From positions 248,001 through 312,000 of the forward strand of contig NZ_JAMSHO010000001.1 of assembly GCF_040147005.1 (NCBI RefSeq): a stretch of DNA of 64,000 nucleotides, given 5' to 3'. Shown in pieces: positions 2,794-63,873 of the stretch. The stretch's first letter is position 1; every line of letters starts with the position of its first letter. The notes under the pieces were generated by a model. That model ran no database searches. It saw nothing but the letters and a program-made list of their open reading frames with translations, and was not told the origin of the DNA. The stretch is from Halomonas sp. H10-9-1 (GTDB taxonomy: Bacteria > Pseudomonadota > Gammaproteobacteria > Pseudomonadales > Halomonadaceae). A program made the position numbers and the translations under genes.

Positions 2794-3467
2794 GTGGCTT
2801 TAGGTGGTTCTCCGGCATGGCGTACGATGACCACCAGTTCGCGGGGGCCGTGCACGCCGTAGGCCAGGGTCTGCTCGATGTTGGCGGTCTTGCTGGGGCC
2901 GGAGATCAGCAGGGCGTTGGTGGGCATGCCGCCGGCCCAAGCGTGAGCCTCGACCACGTCGAAGAGAGTGTCCTCGACAGTGTCGGCGTCGAGCACCGCG
3001 ATATGCAGCGGCGGCACCAGGCTGATCAGCCGAGGCTCGTCCGGCGTGGGCCACAGCCACAGGCTGCCGGTCTCGGCGATGGCGCCACGGGTCGAGGTCA
3101 GGCCGGCCTCCACGCGCTCGAACTGCTCGCGCTGCCACTGTTCGATATCGCGATCCACGCCGACCAGTTCCACGTCGACATCGGCCAGGGCGCTGCGCGC
3201 CTCGACAGCCACCGGGTGCTGCTTGCCCAGCGCCAGCCGACGCACGCCCTTGTCGGCGAGCACCCCGGCCAGCGCCTCGGTCCAGCGAGCCTGGTCGACA
3301 TGGACCACCTCGCCGTGCACCGAGGTGATCCAGCGCTCAAAACGCGCCAGGCGCTCTTCCTGGCTCCAGCCACGGTTCGTCACCACGGCGAAGTCACACT
3401 CGGGGGCGGTCAGCGGACCGTCGGCCCGCTCGCGTAGGCGCTTGAGAATGGTGTCACGGGCACTCAT
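2787..3467 (-). CDS. lutC: LutC-type lactate utilisation protein (LUD domain)
   Basis: Third gene of the lutABC L-lactate oxidation module, 226 residues. It belongs to the LUD-domain family (YkgG/LutC); in Bacillus the LutABC proteins together convert L-lactate to pyruvate. The recognisable LUD signature is the stretch ending GAIAETGSLWLW at mid-protein, followed by the PPLHIAVLDADTVEDTL region typical of the family. The start is the ATG at 3467, which overlaps the lutB stop codon by one base (TGATG), a sign of translational coupling. A longer open frame upstream of this Met lies entirely inside lutB and was rejected. Cytoplasmic; no membrane segment. Confidence 0.9.
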   Translation of the reverse strand: MSARDTILKRLRERADGPLTAPECDFAVVTNRGWSQEERLARFERWITSVHGEVVHVDQARWTEALAGVLADKGVRRLALGKQHPVAVEARSALADVDVELVGVDRDIEQWQREQFERVEAGLTSTRGAIAETGSLWLWPTPDEPRLISLVPPLHIAVLDADTVEDTLFDVVEAHAWAGGMPTNALLISGPSKTANIEQTLAYGVHGPRELVVIVRHAGEPPKATR

Positions 3468-4918
3468 CAGCGCTCCTCCTGGTGGGTCTTGCTCGACTGA
3501 TGACGCTTGACCAGCGCATGCAGGGTGGTGCCGGCCGGCTTCGGTGCGGTGCGATAGTCGGTCCAGGGGCCGAGCCGCGCAGGCGTCAGCGCCCTGAGCT
3601 TGCCCGCCACCGAGGTGCCGGAACGCCAGACGGCGGGGTGGGTGGCCAGCCACTGGAAGCCCTTCCAGGCGGCGACCTCCTTGCGAGTGCGCTTGATGCC
3701 GGCGCCGGGCACGTTACCGCGCCCCTCGCCCACCGACTCCTTGCGCAGCCGCACCAGCAGGTCGGGGATCGGAATCTTCACCGGGCAGACCTCGCCACAG
3801 GCGCCGCACAGGCTGGAGGCGGTGGGCAGGTCCTTGGTCTCCTCCAGGCCCATCAGGTGGGGCGAGAGGATGCTGCCGATCGGGCCGGGGTAGGTGGTGC
3901 CGTAGGTGTGGCCGCCCACCCGGGTATAGACGGGGCAGTGGTTCATGCAGGCGCCGCAACGGATGCAGCGCAGGGTGTCGAGCAGCTCGTCGTCCTGGTA
4001 GATGTTCGACCGGCCATTGTCGACCAGCACCAGGTGGACCTCCTTCGGCCCGTCGTGCTCGCCTTCCTTGCGCGGCGAGCTGATCATGTTGAAGTAGGTG
4101 GTGACGTGCTGGCCGGTGGCGGAGCGGGTCAGCAGGGCGTAGAGGGGCGGCACGTCGCGCAGCTGTTCGACCACCTTCTCGATGCCGGTCACGGCGACGT
4201 GCACCGGCGGCACCGTGGTGGTCATGCGGCCGTTGCCCTCGTTCTCCACCAGGCAGAGGGTGCCGGTCTCGGCCACCGCGAAGTTGACCCCCGAGACCCC
4301 CACATCGGCAGCCATGAAGCGCTCGCGCAGCTGCTGCCGGGCCGCCGCGGTCATGTAGTCGACGTCGCGGGTGCGCTCGGTGCCGGTCTTGTCGTGCAGG
4401 ATCTCGGAGATCTCATCGGTGTTGAGATGGATCGCCGGCATGATGATGTGCGAGGGAGTCTGCTGGTTGAGCTGCACCAGGTATTCGCCGAGATCGGACT
4501 CCAGTGCCTCGATGCCCGCCTCCTCCAGATGGGCGTTGAGGTGCATCTCCTCGGAGACCATCGACTTGCCCTTGATCACCGAGCGCGCCCCGTGGGACTC
4601 GCAGATCTCGCGGACGATACGGCACGCCTCTTCGCCATCCTCGGCCCAGTGCACGCGAATGCCGTTGGCCTCGCAGTTGGCCTCCAGCTGCTCGAGCAGG
4701 TCGGGCAGCCTGGCGAGCGCCCGCAGGCGGATATTGGCGCCCAGTTCGCGCAGGGTCTCGAGGTCCCAGTCATCGAAGCTGTCACGCCGCTTGGACATCA
4801 GGCCATCCATCGCCTTGCGGAAGTTGGCGCGGATCTGCGGATTGCCCAGGGCATCGTGGGCCTGACGATGGAATTCGCGCGGGGTGTAGGTCTCCACGCC
4901 GGGAGGCTGTCCGCTCAT
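3467..4918 (-). CDS. lutB: LutB-type iron-sulfur protein of lactate oxidation
   Basis: A 483-residue LutB/YkgF protein. The N-terminal two thirds is a LUD domain (GVNFAVAETGTLCLVENEGN is its glycine-rich core). It is followed by a bacterial-type 4Fe-4S domain with CIRCGACMNHCP near residue 315 and a second cysteine cluster CGACGEVCPVKIP near residue 370, so it can carry two clusters and pass electrons during lactate oxidation. The start is the ATG at 4918, whose first bases overlap the lutA stop (ATGA). The open frame continues upstream in a non-homologous sequence antiparallel to other reading frames, so that extension was dropped. It sits between lutA and lutC in one coupled operon. Confidence 0.94.
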   Translation of the reverse strand: MSGQPPGVETYTPREFHRQAHDALGNPQIRANFRKAMDGLMSKRRDSFDDWDLETLRELGANIRLRALARLPDLLEQLEANCEANGIRVHWAEDGEEACRIVREICESHGARSVIKGKSMVSEEMHLNAHLEEAGIEALESDLGEYLVQLNQQTPSHIIMPAIHLNTDEISEILHDKTGTERTRDVDYMTAAARQQLRERFMAADVGVSGVNFAVAETGTLCLVENEGNGRMTTTVPPVHVAVTGIEKVVEQLRDVPPLYALLTRSATGQHVTTYFNMISSPRKEGEHDGPKEVHLVLVDNGRSNIYQDDELLDTLRCIRCGACMNHCPVYTRVGGHTYGTTYPGPIGSILSPHLMGLEETKDLPTASSLCGACGEVCPVKIPIPDLLVRLRKESVGEGRGNVPGAGIKRTRKEVAAWKGFQWLATHPAVWRSGTSVAGKLRALTPARLGPWTDYRTAPKPAGTTLHALVKRHQSSKTHQEER

Positions 4919-57088: not shown

Positions 57089-58066
57089 ATGGACGATCTC
57101 TCTCCGTCTGACCTCAAGACGATTCTGCACTCCAAGCGGGCCAACCTTTACTACCTTCAGCACTGTCGGGTGCTCGTCAACGGCGGCCGGGTCGAGTACG
57201 TCACCGATGAGGGACGCCAGTCGAAGTACTGGAACATCCCCATCGCCAATACCACGTCTATTTTGTTGGGCACTGGTACCTCCATTACTCAGGCGGCGAT
57301 GCGCGAACTCGCCAAGGCCGGGGTGCTGGTCGGCTTCTGCGGCGGGGGCGGTACGCCGCTGTTCGCCGCCAACGAAGTCGATGTGGACGTCGCCTGGCTC
57401 ACGCCCCAGAGCGAATACCGTCCCACCGAGTACCTGCAGCACTGGGTACGCTTCTGGTTCGATGACGAAAAGCGCCTGGAGGCCGCGCGGCGCTTTCAGC
57501 AGGCGCGGTTGTCACGTATCCAGCGGCAGTGGCTCGATAGCCGTCCCTTGAAGGACGCCGGCTTTGTGATCTCACCGGATCGCCTGACCGCCGTGCTGGC
57601 GCAGCACGATCAGGCCATCGCCCAGGCGCCTAGTACCGTGGACCTCTTGACCATGGAAGCTCGGCTGACCAAGACGCTGTTCAAGCTAGCCGCCCAGGCT
57701 GTGGGCTATGGCGACTTTACCCGCGCCAAGCGCGCCACTGGCACCGATCCGGCCAACCGCTTTCTCGATCACGGCAACTACCTGGCCTATGGTCTCGGCG
57801 CCACGGCGACCTGGGTGCTGGGTATTCCGCACGGCCTGGCGGTACTGCATGGCAAGACGCGGCGTGGTGGACTGGTCTTCGATGTGGCCGACCTGGTCAA
57901 GGACGCGGTGATTTTGCCCCAGGCGTTTCTCTCCGCCATGCACGGTGACGAGGAGCAAGCGTTCCGCCAGGCCTGCATTGAACAGCTGACCCGTACCGAA
58001 GCCCTCGACTTCATGATCGACACCCTGAAAGCGGTCGCTACCGAGCTGGGGGGCGACGCACCATGA
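57089..58066 (+). CDS. cas1: Type I-F CRISPR-associated integrase Cas1f
   Basis: A 325-residue Cas1 of the I-F type. Metal-binding residues fall at Glu190 (LTMEARLTK), His254 (GLAVLHGKTR) and Asp268 (ADLVKD), consistent with the Cas1 E/H/D metal-binding triad. N-terminal ANLYYLQHCRVLVNGGRVEY and YWNIPIANTTSILLGTGTS are typical of Cas1f. It integrates new spacers together with the Cas2-Cas3 fusion encoded next. The stop overlaps the next start (ATGA). Confidence 0.96.
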   Translation: MDDLSPSDLKTILHSKRANLYYLQHCRVLVNGGRVEYVTDEGRQSKYWNIPIANTTSILLGTGTSITQAAMRELAKAGVLVGFCGGGGTPLFAANEVDVDVAWLTPQSEYRPTEYLQHWVRFWFDDEKRLEAARRFQQARLSRIQRQWLDSRPLKDAGFVISPDRLTAVLAQHDQAIAQAPSTVDLLTMEARLTKTLFKLAAQAVGYGDFTRAKRATGTDPANRFLDHGNYLAYGLGATATWVLGIPHGLAVLHGKTRRGGLVFDVADLVKDAVILPQAFLSAMHGDEEQAFRQACIEQLTRTEALDFMIDTLKAVATELGGDAP

Positions 58067-61000
58067 ACGTGCTGATCGTCTCCCAGTGCAACAAGAATGC
58101 CCTCAAGGAAACCCGTCGGATTCTCGACCAGTTCGCCGAGCGGCGCGGCGAGCGTACCTGGCAGACCTCGATCACCCAGGCGGGGCTGGACACCCTGCGC
58201 AGGCTGCTGAGAAAAACCGCACGCAAGAACAGCGCCGTGGCCTGTCACTGGATCCGTGGCCACGACCATAGTGAGCTGATGTGGATCGTCGGCGATGCCA
58301 GCCGCTTCAACCTGCAGGGTGCCACGCCCACCAACACGACGCGGCGCAATATCCTGCGTACCGAGGACGAGGATGACTGGCATAGCGGCGAGGACATCAA
58401 GCTGCTGGCGAGCCTGGCGGCTTTGCTGCACGACCTGGGCAAGGCCTCCAAAGCGTTTCAACAGCGGCTGATCGGTAAGCGTCAGGGCCGTAATCTCTAT
58501 CGCCACGAGTGGCTATCGCTGCGGCTGTTCCAGGCGTTTGTCGGCGGCGACGATGATGCCGGCTGGCTCCGGCGTCTGATCGAGCCCCCGGCGGACTTCG
58601 TTGCCAGTTGGACGCGCCACCTGCAGTGCGACGGACTCGGTGCCGAGAGTGCCATGCCCTTCCAGCGGCTTCCACCACTGGCCCAGGCGGTTGGCTGGCT
58701 GCTGCTTAGCCACCACCGCTTGCCATTGAAGCCCGGTGATAACCCCGAACGGCTGGGTGGCCGGCTGAGCGGGCTGACTGCTGAAGCGCTGAATGATCTT
58801 CCCGGTCTGCTGACCCATCAGTGGAACGAAGCGTGTCTGGAAGCTGACCCCACGCAGCTGAAGCCCTACTGGCGGCTGGCCGGGGAGCTGCCGGTGGCCA
58901 CAGCCAAGTGGCGGCGGCAGGCAGCGCAAGTGGCGGAAGGGCTTCTCAAGCGCTTGCCACACTACGACGAGCCGCTGCTGGACAACGGCTATGTGATGCA
59001 TCTGGCGCGGCTGTGCCTAATGCTGGCAGATCACTATTACTCCAGTCTCCATGACTCAACGCACGCGGACTGGGTGCAGGGTGATGCGAGTTACCCGCTA
59101 TTCGCCAATACTCAACGCAAAACCGGCATGCCCAGTCAGAAGCTCGATGCCCATCTGCTGGGTGTGGCGCGATTTGCCAAGGAAAATGCCCGCCACCTCG
59201 CCACCCTGAACGACCAACTGCCCCGACTGGCGCGCCACAAGGGCTTTCGCAAGCGCAGTGAAAGCCAGCGTTTTCGCTGGCAGGACCGCGCTTTCGACTT
59301 GGCGGAAGGGCTGCGGGCCGCCTCTCGAAAGCAAGGGTTCTTCGGCATTAATATGGCTTCCACCGGCTGCGGCAAGACGCTGGCCAACGGCCGTATTCTC
59401 TATGCCCTGGCCGACCCCGAGAAGGGGGCGCGTTTTTCGATCGCTCTTGGGCTGCGCACCCTGACCCTGCAGACTGGGCGCGACTATCGCCACCAGATGC
59501 ACCTGGGCGAGGATGAGCTAGCGATTCGCGTCGGTGGCAGTGCTAGCCGTGCGTTATTTGAGCACCATGAGGCACAGGCAGAGCGGACCGGTTCGGCGTC
59601 AACTCAGGATCTGCTTTCCGATGACTCTCATGTGCTGTTCGAGGGCAACTTCTCCGAGCACCCCATCCTCCGGCGTGTGGCGCACGATCCCGCGGTCAAG
59701 AGTCTGCTTGCCGCGCCCATTCTCACTTGCACCGTGGATCATCTAATGCCCGCCACCGAAAGTACCCGGGGCGGTGGGCAGATCGCGCCCATGCTGCGGC
59801 TGATGACGTCCGACCTGGTGCTCGACGAAATCGACGATTTCGATATCAGCGACTTGCCGGCACTCACGCGGCTGGTGAACTGGGCGGGACTGCTGGGATC
59901 GCGGGTGTTGCTCTCTTCCGCCACGCTGCCCCCGGCGTTGGTGGCAGGGCTGTTCGAGGCCTACCAGGCAGGGCGTACCGTCTACCAGCGCAATCGAGGG
60001 GAGGTCGGCCAGCGAGCCCCGGCGGTGTGCTGCGCCTGGTTCGATGAAAATGCCACGCTCGACGCGTCGTGCAGCGAGCGCGCCGATTTTGAAGCCGCGC
60101 ACCGCCAGTTTGTGCTCAAGCGACACCAGAGACTGGCCAAGGACGCAGTGCGTCGCCGGGCCAGAGTGGCAGAGTGGAAGCCTCAATCTCGGCAGTCGGA
60201 CGCCCTTCACCAAGAGCTGGCGGAGCATTTGCGCGGCTACGCACTGGAACTGCACTGTCAAAACGGCACTGCGCTGGAGAGTGGCAAGCGGGTTTCCTTC
60301 GGCCTGATTCGTATGGCCAATATAGATCCCCTGGTGGCGGTCGCCCAGGTGCTCTACCGGCTGGGTGCCCCGGAAAACGTCCAGATTCACCTGTGCGTGT
60401 ATCACTCTCAGTATCCGCTACTGATGCGCTCGGCCATCGAGCGTCAGCTGGACCGTGTTCTGCAGCGCAAGTCGCCAGCAGCCATATTTTCGCTGCCGGA
60501 GGTTCGGCGATGCCTGGAGGTCTCTGACGCGAAGGAGCAACTGTTTATCGTCCTGGGCTCACCGGTCACCGAAGTGGGGCGCGACCATGACTACGACTGG
60601 GCGATCGTTGAGCCGTCATCCATGCGCTCACTGATTCAACTGGCCGGCCGGGTGCGTCGCCACCGCCCAGATCCTTGGGAAACTCCCAATATCCTGCTGC
60701 TCAACCGCAACCTGAAAGCCCTCGAACACCCCGATGGCCGCCGACCGGTGTTTACCCGACCCGGCTTCGAGACCGACGCGTACCGGCTGCAAAGCCATGC
60801 GCTAATAGACGTGCTGATGCCGGAGCAGCGCGATGTGATCGACGCCCGCCCACGTATCCTTCCCCGCGAGCCGCTGGCGCCTCACCACAACCTGGTCGAT
60901 CTGGAGCATGCACGCCTTGAGGCAACGATGGTCGTGCCCGACGTGGCCGATACTCAGGCCATGCCGGTGCTGGGCGAGGATGAGTTGGCGAAGCTTTCCA

Positions 61001-61461
61001 AGCGCAAGCGCCAGCAATATCTGGCGGCCAGGGAGGCACCCGCGCCGGCTCCCAAACTGGGGGCCTATAGCTGGTTCGTGATGCCCCGCCTGACGCTGAC
61101 CGGGGTGATGAGCCAGTGGCGGCCGTTTCGTGACAGCACGGGCCAAGAAGATGAACTGGTGCTGTTACCGGACGAAAGTGGTGAGCAGACCTGCCTGCAT
61201 CGCGTTCACAAGGAGCGCCCCCGAGACCCGGAGCTGCTGGTGCCCTGCGAGACCAGCCTGCAGCGCATCGAGCTGCAGTATGGCCCGCGCATTCAAACCT
61301 GGGGGCCAACGGACTATCTCACGACGCTGGCCGGACTGGCCGAAGCCCAGGGTATAGAGCTGGAGCGCTGTGCCCGGAAGTTTGGTCGGCTGACGTTGCG
61401 CGAGTTGGACGACGATGAGCAGTGGAAGTTTCACCCGGCGCTTGGGTTTTCGCGATTGTAA
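58063..61461 (+). CDS. cas3: Type I-F Cas2-Cas3 fusion nuclease-helicase
   Basis: A 1132-residue protein. Residues 1-90 are a Cas2-like domain (MNVLIVSQCNKNALKETRRI). An HD nuclease domain follows with LLHDLGKASKAF (HD near residue 123). Then comes an SF2 helicase with Walker A NMASTGCGKTLANGRI (near 432), motif II LVLDEIDDFDISD (near 588), motif III LLSSATLPP and motif VI QLAGRVRRHRPDP. It degrades DNA marked by the Csy complex and helps Cas1 in adaptation. All motifs are intact. It is coupled to cas1 by a 4-bp overlap. Confidence 0.97.
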   Translation: MNVLIVSQCNKNALKETRRILDQFAERRGERTWQTSITQAGLDTLRRLLRKTARKNSAVACHWIRGHDHSELMWIVGDASRFNLQGATPTNTTRRNILRTEDEDDWHSGEDIKLLASLAALLHDLGKASKAFQQRLIGKRQGRNLYRHEWLSLRLFQAFVGGDDDAGWLRRLIEPPADFVASWTRHLQCDGLGAESAMPFQRLPPLAQAVGWLLLSHHRLPLKPGDNPERLGGRLSGLTAEALNDLPGLLTHQWNEACLEADPTQLKPYWRLAGELPVATAKWRRQAAQVAEGLLKRLPHYDEPLLDNGYVMHLARLCLMLADHYYSSLHDSTHADWVQGDASYPLFANTQRKTGMPSQKLDAHLLGVARFAKENARHLATLNDQLPRLARHKGFRKRSESQRFRWQDRAFDLAEGLRAASRKQGFFGINMASTGCGKTLANGRILYALADPEKGARFSIALGLRTLTLQTGRDYRHQMHLGEDELAIRVGGSASRALFEHHEAQAERTGSASTQDLLSDDSHVLFEGNFSEHPILRRVAHDPAVKSLLAAPILTCTVDHLMPATESTRGGGQIAPMLRLMTSDLVLDEIDDFDISDLPALTRLVNWAGLLGSRVLLSSATLPPALVAGLFEAYQAGRTVYQRNRGEVGQRAPAVCCAWFDENATLDASCSERADFEAAHRQFVLKRHQRLAKDAVRRRARVAEWKPQSRQSDALHQELAEHLRGYALELHCQNGTALESGKRVSFGLIRMANIDPLVAVAQVLYRLGAPENVQIHLCVYHSQYPLLMRSAIERQLDRVLQRKSPAAIFSLPEVRRCLEVSDAKEQLFIVLGSPVTEVGRDHDYDWAIVEPSSMRSLIQLAGRVRRHRPDPWETPNILLLNRNLKALEHPDGRRPVFTRPGFETDAYRLQSHALIDVLMPEQRDVIDARPRILPREPLAPHHNLVDLEHARLEATMVVPDVADTQAMPVLGEDELAKLSKRKRQQYLAAREAPAPAPKLGAYSWFVMPRLTLTGVMSQWRPFRDSTGQEDELVLLPDESGEQTCLHRVHKERPRDPELLVPCETSLQRIELQYGPRIQTWGPTDYLTTLAGLAEAQGIELERCARKFGRLTLRELDDDEQWKFHPALGFSRL

Positions 61462-61483
61462 AGCCGACCCTAGTGGGCCGGCT
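61462..61483. terminator. Hairpin after cas3, also ending the minus-strand mini-CRISPR
   Basis: AGCCGACCC-TAGT-GGGCCGGCT: 9-bp stem with one A-C mismatch on the plus strand. It abuts the cas3 stop codon. Read on the minus strand it follows the second mini-CRISPR stem-loop and is trailed by TTTACAA, so it can end a small RNA coming from the right as well as the cas1-cas3 mRNA. Confidence 0.6.
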
Positions 61484-61485
61484 CC

Positions 61486-61560
61486 CTGCCTGTCCGGCAG
61501 CACGTTGTTCCCAAAACAGGAAACGATAATTTTCTGAGCTGCCTGGCGGCAGAGCTACAG
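61486..61560 (-). ncRNA. Degenerate mini-CRISPR: candidate Cas-regulating crRNA-like RNA
   Basis: On the minus strand, a first I-F-like repeat occupies 61558-61531: stem CTGCC-GCCA-GGCAG, then the 8-nt handle CTCAGAAA, which in I-F crRNAs is the 5' tag left by Cas6f cleavage. The spacer starts at 61530 (ATTATCGTTTCCTGTTTTGG...) and runs to about 61506-61501. A second stem-loop CTGCC-GGACA-GGCAG follows at 61500-61486. Both stems are identical to the I-F repeat stem (known pattern CTGCC-N5-GGCAG then CTNAGAAA), while the flanking bases have drifted. Handle to second stem is 30 nt, against 37 in a normal I-F unit. No other repeat is near, and the spacer matches the csy1 upstream region beside a PAM. 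The layout matches the Cas-regulating RNAs (CreR) and CreA antitoxin RNAs reported for type I systems. Transcription is not shown by sequence alone. Confidence 0.75.
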
Positions 61561-61601
61561 GTTAGCTATCTTACAGCTTAAGCGCGATAAAATCCCTAAA
61601 A

Positions 61602-61624
61602 CCCTAAACATAAAACTATAATGG
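61602..61624 (-). promoter_or_regulatory. Self-target (protospacer with CC PAM) upstream of csy1
   Basis: Minus strand: CC at 61624-61623, then ATTATAGTTTTATGTTTAGG from 61622 to 61603, ending with G61602. Compared with the mini-CRISPR spacer, 17 of 21 positions agree; mismatches are 6, 11, 12 and 18. Positions 6, 12 and 18 are not read by type I Cascade, so effectively one mismatch remains. Beyond position 21 the match is lost. The site covers a TATAAT hexamer (61617-61622) and touches the GGTGA ribosome site of csy1, eight bases before its ATG. Bound Csy complex here would block csy expression. Confidence 0.75.
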
Positions 61625-61631
61625 TGAAGAA

Positions 61632-62924
61632 ATGCATGAGGCACTAAGCAGGGACGAAATTCATCAGACAATACAGGCGTTTATAGCGGAGCGATTGGCC
61701 GGGAAGCTGGAAAAGCTGGCGACAGACGATCCTAAGCGCGAATCGCTTACCGAGCAGTTTACGTTCGAAAACTGGGTTGGCGATGCTGCCCGCCGGGTCA
61801 GTCAGCTGCAGGTGGTTACCCATGCACTGAAGGCCACACACCCAGATGCCAAGGGCTCCAGTCGCTATGTGGAGCCCGCCACGTTGCCTGAGATTCCTCT
61901 GGTTGGCAGCCATTTGCTGTCCAGTGACTTCAGCGGCGATGTGGTGGGCAACGCCGCCGCACTGGATGTGTATAAGTTTCTCAAGCTCCAGCATCAAGGC
62001 AAGTCGCTGCTAGAGCTAGCGCTTGAGAGGGATGGCTCATTCAGCGCGGCACTGAGCAATAATCCCGAGCAGGCCAAGGAGTGGGTCGAGGCCTTTGCCA
62101 GTATTACTCAGCCTAAGGGAAACGAAGCCTCGCACTCATTGGCCAAGCAGCTGTACTGGGTGGTTGGAGATGACCCCACTGATGATGCGGACTTTCATCT
62201 GCTGGCACCGCTTTACGCTACTTCGCTTGCACATCAGGTATTCCAGCGCATCAACGCTGATCGCTTCGGTGAGGCTGCCAAGGAAGCTCGCCAGGCGCGA
62301 CGTAACAGCAAGCCGTCTGATAAGGGATACCGCGACTATCCCAACCTGGCTGTGCAGAAACTGGGGGGCACAAAGCCGCAGAATATTTCCCAGCTCAACA
62401 GTGAGCGAGGTGGCAACAACTACTTGTTGGCTTCCCTGCCACCCAAGTGGAAAAGCCAGGGCATCAAGCCGCCTTTGCACACCGAGACCATCTTCAAGCG
62501 CTTTGGTCGCCGGCGCGAGGCGCGCTGGCTGGCCAGCGATCTACTTCGGTTTCTTCAAACCAATCCGCCCGACAATCGTTATACCCGTGACCAGGTGGAT
62601 GGCTATGTCGCCGCGTTGATTGATGAGCTGGTGTTGTTCGCCAGCGAGTTCCAGGTACTGGAGCCGGGCTGGTCGGCGGACTCGGCATGTCGACTGCCGC
62701 TGGAGCAGCAGCTATGGCTCGACCCCTGGCGCGGCGAAGAAGACGCTGAGTTTGCCCAACAACGTGAGCAGGGCGAATGGCCCGGGGCCATTCGTGCGGC
62801 CTTCGCCCGCTGGCTCAATGCCTGGTTGAAACCGCTGGGCGTAGGCGATGACGAGCACCGCGAGTGGCAGGCACGCTTGCGGCGTCAGCTGGATATTCTG
62901 CAAGAGGAGTTGCTTCATGGGTAA
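61632..62924 (+). CDS. csy1: Type I-F Csy complex subunit Csy1 (Cas8f)
   Basis: A 430-residue Cas8f, the large subunit that recognises the PAM. Typical stretches: VVGNAAALDVYKFLKLQHQG, EASHSLAKQLYWVVGDDP and NLAVQKLGGTKPQNISQLNS, the last being the best-conserved Csy1 block, and ELEPGWSADS..-like VLEPGWSADSACRLPLEQQL. The ATG at 61632 is preceded by GGTGA. It starts a second transcription unit after a 170-bp gap from cas3. The gap carries a mini-CRISPR and its target. The stop overlaps csy2 by eight bases. Confidence 0.95.
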   Translation: MHEALSRDEIHQTIQAFIAERLAGKLEKLATDDPKRESLTEQFTFENWVGDAARRVSQLQVVTHALKATHPDAKGSSRYVEPATLPEIPLVGSHLLSSDFSGDVVGNAAALDVYKFLKLQHQGKSLLELALERDGSFSAALSNNPEQAKEWVEAFASITQPKGNEASHSLAKQLYWVVGDDPTDDADFHLLAPLYATSLAHQVFQRINADRFGEAAKEARQARRNSKPSDKGYRDYPNLAVQKLGGTKPQNISQLNSERGGNNYLLASLPPKWKSQGIKPPLHTETIFKRFGRRREARWLASDLLRFLQTNPPDNRYTRDQVDGYVAALIDELVLFASEFQVLEPGWSADSACRLPLEQQLWLDPWRGEEDAEFAQQREQGEWPGAIRAAFARWLNAWLKPLGVGDDEHREWQARLRRQLDILQEELLHG

Positions 62925-63873
62925 TGCTGAGCCAAAGGCGTTGCTGGTGTTGCCGCACCTGCACATCCAGAACGCCAATGCGATTTCCAGCCCACTGACC
63001 TGGGGATTTCCCGCCATGAGCGCCTTTGTCGGCTTTATGCACGCACTGGAGCGCCGGCTACCTGAATCCCTGGACTTGCAGTTCAACGCTATGGGTGTGA
63101 TCTGCCACGACTACGAGACCCAGACCCAGCCGGGCTATGTAAAGTCCTTTCACTTGACCCGCAACCCGGTGGGTAAGGATGGCAAAACCGCCGCCATTGT
63201 CGAGGAAGGGCGCATGCATCTTGACGTGTCCCTGGTGCTCGGTGTGGACGGCAAGAGCATTAACGATGTCGATGCCGCGCAGGCCGTGATGGACATCGTC
63301 GCCGGTATGCGTATTGCCGGCGGCAGCATAATGCCGTCGTTGCCCGGACGGCGGCGCTATCAGCCGGAGTTAAAGGTGCTGGGTGATGATCCTGATGATA
63401 GGCAGAAAGCGTTTCGCCAGCTCAAGCGCCGCTGGTTGCCGGGCTTCGCTTTGGTGCTGCGTGACGACCTGCTGCAGGAGCACCACCAGGAACGGCAACA
63501 TGCCCAGCCGGACACCACCTTACTGGATAGCTGGCTGGACCTGTCGCGCCTGAACTGGGAGTGCCACCAGACCATCACCGAGGATGAAAACGGCAAGGAG
63601 GCGACCGAGGTCGAGTGGCGGGTGCGCAAAAAGCCAGGCTGGCTGGTACCGCTACCCGTGGGCTACGGTGCGCTGACTGACGTTTTCGAGGCGGGAGAGG
63701 TCGCCAGTGCTCGAGATGACAGCACGCCCTTTTGCTTCGTCGAAAGCCTGTACTCCATCGGGCAGTGGCGTAGCCCGCATCACCTGAAGGCACCCCGCGA
63801 CCTGCTCTGGTACGTAGACAACAACCTGAAACAAGGCCTGTATCGCCTGAATAACGACTATCAAGCGCACTGA
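62917..63873 (+). CDS. csy2: Type I-F Csy complex subunit Csy2 (Cas5f)
   Basis: A 318-residue Cas5f with an RRM-like fold which binds the crRNA 5' handle. It begins KALLVLPHLHIQNANAISSP, LTWGFPAMSAFVGFMHALER, the hallmark of Csy2, and ends SIGQWRSPHHLKAPRDLLWY. The start is ATG 62917 inside the end of csy1, with AGAGGAG upstream. The longer frame upstream lies in csy1 and was rejected. Confidence 0.95.
   Translation: MGNAEPKALLVLPHLHIQNANAISSPLTWGFPAMSAFVGFMHALERRLPESLDLQFNAMGVICHDYETQTQPGYVKSFHLTRNPVGKDGKTAAIVEEGRMHLDVSLVLGVDGKSINDVDAAQAVMDIVAGMRIAGGSIMPSLPGRRRYQPELKVLGDDPDDRQKAFRQLKRRWLPGFALVLRDDLLQEHHQERQHAQPDTTLLDSWLDLSRLNWECHQTITEDENGKEATEVEWRVRKKPGWLVPLPVGYGALTDVFEAGEVASARDDSTPFCFVESLYSIGQWRSPHHLKAPRDLLWYVDNNLKQGLYRLNNDYQAH

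Follow-up and report, generated by a model that had tools for sequence, protein, structure and literature searches.

A candidate CreR-type mini-CRISPR upstream of csy1 in a type I-F1 CRISPR-Cas locus of Halomonas

The gap between cas2-3 and csy1 in Halomonas sp. H10-9-1 holds a mini-CRISPR whose guide matches, imperfectly, a PAM-flanked site just upstream of csy1. We consider it probable, from the sequence of the locus and from comparison with its relatives, that this unit is a CreR-type mini-CRISPR of a type I-F1 system, with which the Csy complex would repress csy1-csy4. Directly observed are the anatomy of the unit, the uniqueness of the match, the covariation of guide and target, the absence of a mini-ORF between target and csy1, and the intactness of the csy genes.

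Anatomy of the mini-CRISPR and its target

The window, which is the whole 64,000-nt stretch of DNA that was analysed, holds the front part of a type I-F1 system on its plus strand: cas1f (57089..58066; TIGR03637), cas2-3 (cas3f; 58063..61461; TIGR02562), which lies upstream of the mini-CRISPR, csy1 (cas8f; 61632..62924; TIGR02564), which is the first gene 3′ of the target, and csy2 (62848..63873; TIGR02565). The csy2 match runs from residue 32, and the actual start of this gene is probably about 30 codons further downstream. Directly beyond the window end lie csy3 and csy4 and then two arrays; Csy1, Csy2, Csy3 and Csy4 all pass their family cut-offs, and the locus has a full, intact I-F1 set of cas1, cas2-3, csy1, csy2, csy3 and csy4. 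In the first array (L031), two adjacent spacers (AACAGCC... and GACGAGA...; G000:C1:315923-316163) stand in a tandem repeat, an array duplication.

The mini-CRISPR lies on the minus strand of the 170-nt cas2-3/csy1 gap. Its first degenerate repeat, psiR1 (61531..61557), consists of CTGCCGCCAGGCAG followed by CTCAGAAA and folds as a hairpin. It retains the stem and the complete 8-nt handle CTCAGAAA, identical to the array handle, and departs from the array repeat in its first 5 nt, which have diverged, and in its loop, which is short by 1 nt. The Rfam model CRISPR-DR4 (RF01317) scores 61531-61552 at 17.4 bits (E 0.65), below its gathering score of 35. The 25-nt guide, psiS, follows at 61506..61530, and then the second degenerate repeat, psiR2 (61478..61505), which also folds as a hairpin and has kept the stem CTGCCGGACAGGCAG (61486-61500) and lost the handle. 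The target of psiS, at 61602..61622 on the same strand, is identical at 17 of 21 positions, and its position 1 is adjoined by CC, the I-F PAM (61623..61624, minus strand). The target ends 9 nt 5′ of the csy1 ATG (61632).

An earlier note on this DNA had described two minus-strand I-F stem-loops (CTGCC/GGCAG) 52 nt apart, the first with a crRNA handle, and a spacer matching 17 of 21 bases at 61622-61602 with an adjoining CC; each of these proved correct to the base. It had also placed three of the four mismatches at positions 6, 12 and 18, as we find, and the fourth is at 11. The comparison with the array repeat that it had called for was run, with a search by exact 15-nt core (L031): the repeat is GTTCGCTGCCGCCCAGGCAGCTCAGAAA in 94 of 94 copies, all with that stem and handle, so an array repeat lacking the two, which the note had named as evidence against its reading, is not what this system has. 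The arrays share the stem and the psiR1 handle with the unit; they differ from it in having 94 identical repeats and spacers of 32-33 nt, where the unit has a pair of degenerate repeats and a guide of 25 nt that targets its own locus.

Chance was assessed as the frequency with which a 21-nt match adjoining CC within this gap reaches 17/21. Not one of 20,000 shuffles did so (5 reached 15), nor did any of 20,334 21-mers from the window, and the best of 92 array spacers stood at 13/21. A search of the whole source genome with the guide pattern, at up to 2 mismatches, gave no site other than the target and the mini-CRISPR. Although CTGCC-N5-GGCAG hairpins are present elsewhere in the source genome outside the arrays, these four controls rule out a chance match. 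A remnant array is ruled out because relatives hold different guides, each matching its own gap, and a recent self-targeting spacer because of the degenerate repeats, the mismatches at 6, 12 and 18 and the occurrence of the same target in three relatives (G026, G067 and G131). With units of differing sequence recurring in 44 of 110 loci with the 6/12/18 mismatch pattern (see below), we give next to no credence to a chance likeness, a remnant array or a newly acquired self-targeting spacer.

A scan of 61400-61700 found no standard sigma-70 promoter and no intrinsic terminator. The csy1 'promoter' therefore rests on a −10-like TATAAT within the target (61617..61622, plus strand), which has no fitting −35 and no promoter call; a possible ribosome-binding GGTGA stands directly after the target. 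A strong minus-strand hairpin after psiR2 that spans the cas2-3 stop codon (61459..61484; −18.6 kcal/mol, z −5.2) was thus not called a terminator; it has only a short T-run and is a possible end of the guide transcript. Upstream of the −10-like hexamer, where a −35 would be expected, there is a direct repeat, CCCT...ACCCTAAA (61593-61609), present also in L035, L041 and L046 and hence in all four loci that share this target; it is possibly the site of a regulator.

We infer the steps from transcription to repression from this anatomy and from a CreA-type guide of an Acinetobacter I-F system, which lowered expression of a gfp reporter in a Csy4-dependent manner in experiments described in passages of PMC10097628. 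The minus strand of the gap would be transcribed, and Csy4 would cut behind both hairpins to give a crRNA-like RNA of ~53 nt, in which the usual 8-nt handle leads into the 25-nt guide and a hairpin stands at the 3′ end; the predicted 5′ end is CUCAGAAA. A guide-loaded Csy complex would then bind the CC-flanked partial site over the TATAAT and block transcription into csy1-csy4. Pairing across 17-21 nt that leaves positions 6, 12 and 18 free would hold the complex without efficient attack by Cas2-3. The effector genes would rise whenever array crRNAs or inhibitors pull Csy off the guide. Since the target is downstream of cas1 and cas2-3, the adaptation and nuclease genes would escape the feedback, and the predicted repression would span csy1-csy4 and not cas1 or cas2-3.

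Alternatively, with the same guide and target, the bound complex might stop transcripts that read through from cas2-3 or that start at a promoter upstream of the target, acting as a roadblock and not by covering a csy1 −10 element. The missing −35 speaks for such a roadblock, as does the GGTGA just past the target, whose use would require transcription to begin upstream of the target; csy1 could in any case also be reached by read-through from cas2-3. However, TATAAT or TACAAT is kept in 4 of 4 loci with this target, and in three further loci without a toxin (G136, G140 and G141) the targets abut the −35 of a recognisable promoter, which is 66-70 nt away from csy1 on its 5′ side. We regard the roadblock as unlikely, but as the most serious of the alternatives considered here, and prefer direct occlusion of the putative csy1 −10 region by the Csy complex.

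Guide-target pairing across related I-F loci

A csy1 match was found in 79 of 275 genomes of the family (81 rows). We assembled 110 loci from 76 of these 81 rows and from 34 rows (11 + 23) of class and order samples. Five family rows were excluded, namely two of G170 (the first with stop codons), the second of G140, and those of G158 and G171. The 34 additional rows were the best-scoring ones that had a locus and were new to the set, weaker or locus-less rows being excluded. A scan of genome contigs yielded one locus, that of G026, which was already in the set. A unit was defined as a minus-strand psiR1-like hairpin with handle, together with a same-strand, CC-flanked target matching at no fewer than 12 of 20 positions with at most one seed mismatch. 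By this definition, 44 of the 110 csy1 loci have a unit with its own partial target. Guide sequences vary from locus to locus, and alignment of the cas3-csy1 gap across related I-F loci, a check that the earlier note had proposed, showed that guide and target covary.

The pairs also reveal a pattern of pairing. Among 34 non-redundant guide-target pairs, each of positions 6, 12 and 18 is mismatched in 26, approximately the level of random bases. Mismatches at positions 9, 10, 11 and 13 number 1, 0, 3 and 2, and those at 14, 15, 16, 17, 19 and 20 number 9, 5, 5, 7, 12 and 20; positions 1-5, 7 and 8 are unusable for this profile because the search was conditioned on them. In type I guides, position 18 is unpaired as well. 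The contrast between 26 of 34 at 6, 12 and 18 and 0-3 at 9, 10, 11 and 13 indicates that type I guide pairing is under selection.

With the seed condition lifted, 11 or more of 15 core positions match in 43 of the 48 loci that have a strict psiR1, against 8 of 960 shuffled guides. The five that fall below this mark are L053, L069, L145, L158 and L162, the hairpin scored for L145 differing from that of the unit survey. The mini-CRISPRs of L053 and L158 find their best CC-flanked match not on the minus but on the plus strand (14/20 and 17/20, respectively). A control with generous matching, in which guides were combined with foreign gaps, reached 12/20 in 52 of 1850 combinations, so a score of 12-13/20 is weak by itself; this touches L055, L069 and L076.

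The psiR2 stem is retained in 44 of 44 loci (10/10 in 41 of them), and the psiR2 handle is reduced to three or fewer of seven positions in 43. Csy4 processing would allow decay of both the psiR2 handle and the front of psiR1, because neither part enters the mature RNA. In the gaps of L097 and L098, one guide has two adjoining CC-flanked targets, an arrangement that suggests double binding.

Far and near targets in the cas3-csy1 gap

The target is 155-535 nt 5′ of csy1 in 33 of the 44 unit loci, so the unit in this gap does not as a rule aim at csy1. An SD-led mini-ORF with two adjacent rare codons (AGA/AGG, ATA ATA or TTA TTA) is present in 28 of these 33 loci, the five without one being L043, L112, L116, L118 and L148; AGA/AGG, ATA and TTA are used at 0.9-2.3 per thousand in 27 long ORFs of the window. 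These 28 loci look like the Acinetobacter CreTA modules that passages of PMC10097628 describe for the same gap. In 19 of the 33, the first base of a −35-like hexamer is 2-4 nt away from the target (a count with no shuffled control), which in those loci places the PAM right beside the toxin-unit promoter. For 25 of the 33, the hairpin with the best tail in the creT-csy1 interval measures 9-12 bp and lies ~65-86 nt before csy1; it is perhaps a terminator or attenuator of the toxin RNA. Because termination could then be separate, we make no claim that CreA of these loci represses csy1 as well. The presumed creT mini-ORFs of far-target loci such as L032, L037, L039, L052 and L147 have a common frame like M-I-G-Y, and their tandem rare codon differs by species (TTA TTA, AGG AGA, ATA ATA, AGA AGA). 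The presumed CreT toxin may switch which tRNA is tied up.

Near targets, within 115 nt of csy1, were found in 11 loci, and none of the 11 yielded an SD-led mini-ORF in the short stretch available for the search. L055 and L069 are weak members of this group, with 12/20 matches and long gaps containing other genes. The remaining nine of the 44 form the toxin-less class: this locus, G026, G067, G131, G136, G140, G141, G894 and G950. Direct targeting of csy1 is therefore a minority form (9 of 44, the two further near loci being weak). In the first four, the target lies over TATAAT or, in G067 and G131, TACAAT directly before csy1. In G136, G140 and G141, it abuts the −35 of the promoter mentioned above (−35 placement being without a shuffled control), and G140 and G141 have an identical guide. 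G894 and G950 belong to other families of the order.

The prevalence of far targets, and of rare-codon mini-ORFs in 28 of those loci, raises the alternative that the guide studied here is the CreA antitoxin of a CreTA pair with an unrecognised toxin RNA, and that csy1 is affected, if at all, only secondarily. The spacing between psiR1 and target is in keeping with this: it is 67-72 nt in the four loci with our target, and 16 of the 33 CreTA-class (far-target) loci have 65-75 nt. However, just 9 nt separate the target from the csy1 ATG, and the short stretch available in the 11 near-target loci holds no SD-led mini-ORF. An 8-codon mini-ORF at 61621, overlapping the csy1 start, was rejected as a toxin candidate; the frame is not conserved in G026, whose counterpart stops elsewhere. 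We judge a hidden CreTA pair improbable and favour a CreR-type unit, although the shared spacing fits a CreTA unit having lost its toxin segment.

Some gaps hold other genes. In L055 (ORFs ~3094-3703 of the locus) and L059, a HicB-family gene (PF05534, 1.1e-15) follows a gene that we take to be HicA-like and for which Pfam and NCBIfam searches gave no match. The gaps of L067 and L069 are similar in length to these (length only was compared). The L055 mini-CRISPR, with its weak 12/20 target, and the HicA/HicB pair may possibly form a guide-controlled, CrePA-like protein toxin-antitoxin system. In the ~224-nt gaps of L049 and L060, no psiR was found, and there is a minus-strand 60-aa frame that, by eye, resembles the front of the L055 HicB-like protein and has no Pfam or NCBIfam match; it is perhaps a relic of a HicA/HicB pair. 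The same gap length is found in L050, L051, L054, L056, L057, L061, L062 and L064.

Known relatives and evolution of the unit

CreR is an RNA, encoded by a mini-CRISPR, that regulates cas genes (Liu et al. 2023, Cell Host Microbe, as cited in passages of PMC13131331, PMC12737573 and PMC12948488). In these passages, it is recorded for subtypes I-B, I-E and V-A (PMC13131331), for type I generally and V-A (PMC12737573), or with no subtype mentioned (PMC12948488). The unit described here shares with CreR a mini-CRISPR with degenerate repeats in a cas locus, a PAM-flanked partial target just upstream of effector cas genes, and no linked toxin found, the 9 nt between target and csy1 holding no toxin gene and no SD-led mini-ORF. 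It differs from the CreR on record in belonging to subtype I-F1 and in having only csy genes downstream of its target. An I-F CreR was not found in the literature searched, which included passages of PMC10013973 but neither the primary CreR report nor the supplement of PMC10097628 with its additional CreTA homologues, where such loci might be listed.

I-F CreTA is already described in the text of PMC10097628 for Acinetobacter WCHA45, LoGeW2-3 and ANC3789. As there, psiR1-psiS-psiR2 lies in the cas3-csy1 gap pointing away from csy1, with a CC-flanked partial target. In Acinetobacter, however, a 33-bp creT mini-ORF is present downstream of the target, and no SD-led creT mini-ORF was found downstream of the target here; we therefore do not assign this locus to CreTA. 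Haloarchaeal CreA, in passages of PMC8501985, shows the same repeat decay, with two degenerate repeats keeping handle and stem and with guide positions 6 and 12 irrelevant, and the tandem rare-codon toxins of haloarchaeal CreTA are shared with relatives of our locus; in contrast, that system is archaeal, has a toxin as its target and uses the PAM TTC.

The target block, allowing at most one mismatch, occurs once per genome in exactly 4 of the 275 family genomes (the source genome, G026, G067 and G131), always upstream of csy1. At position 4, guide and target are both A in two of these loci and both G in the other two; extra mismatches are at positions 8 and 14 in G067 and at 13-15 in G131. These four loci bear on a further alternative, in which the unit is a CreTA leftover after toxin loss whose guide still pairs and whose regulation no longer matters. 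A tree of 110 Csy1 proteins (a quick tree with some long branches and open forks) scatters the toxin-less label, which takes 7 changes, with starred branches forcing at least 5; it also makes G067, which is toxin-less, the sister of G027, which has CreTA, at a support of 98. Yet G026, of the same genus as the source genome and with a Csy1 83% identical, has the 21-nt target unchanged and a psiS that differs within positions 1-21 only at 18, an unpaired position, and when the four loci are aligned, no stretch of the gap is better conserved than the target and repeat blocks. We consider such a leftover very improbable, slightly more so than a hidden CreTA pair, and retain the functional CreR-type unit as the preferred reading.

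In the same tree, the CreTA label takes 27 changes, 15 of them forced; for the 'hic' label, we assigned four loci by sequence and the others by gap length. Grouping the four loci that share this target into one csy1 clade was rejected (p-AU 3.7e-8), in a test on 72 of the 110 proteins with long branches removed and with the group named after inspection of the tree. The scattered labels and the rejected clade indicate a faster turnover of guide-target cassettes, by gain, loss or exchange, than of csy1. We tentatively suggest, with a little less than even confidence, that the cas3-csy1 gap of gammaproteobacterial I-F loci serves as a socket into which exchangeable cassettes of guide plus target fit, coupled either to a rare-codon toxin (CreTA) or to the effector operon (CreR). 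These would be swapped or converted independently of csy1, with toxin loss turning an addiction module into an immunity autoregulator, or the reverse.

The 34 natural guide-target pairs provide a field-made view of the guide positions that matter for binding. If the CreR-type reading is true, RNA-guided Cas autorepression would extend to type I-F, with its much-studied Csy complex and anti-CRISPRs, and the presence of a toxin at this site in some natural loci and its absence from others would make the interconversion of CreTA and CreR testable.
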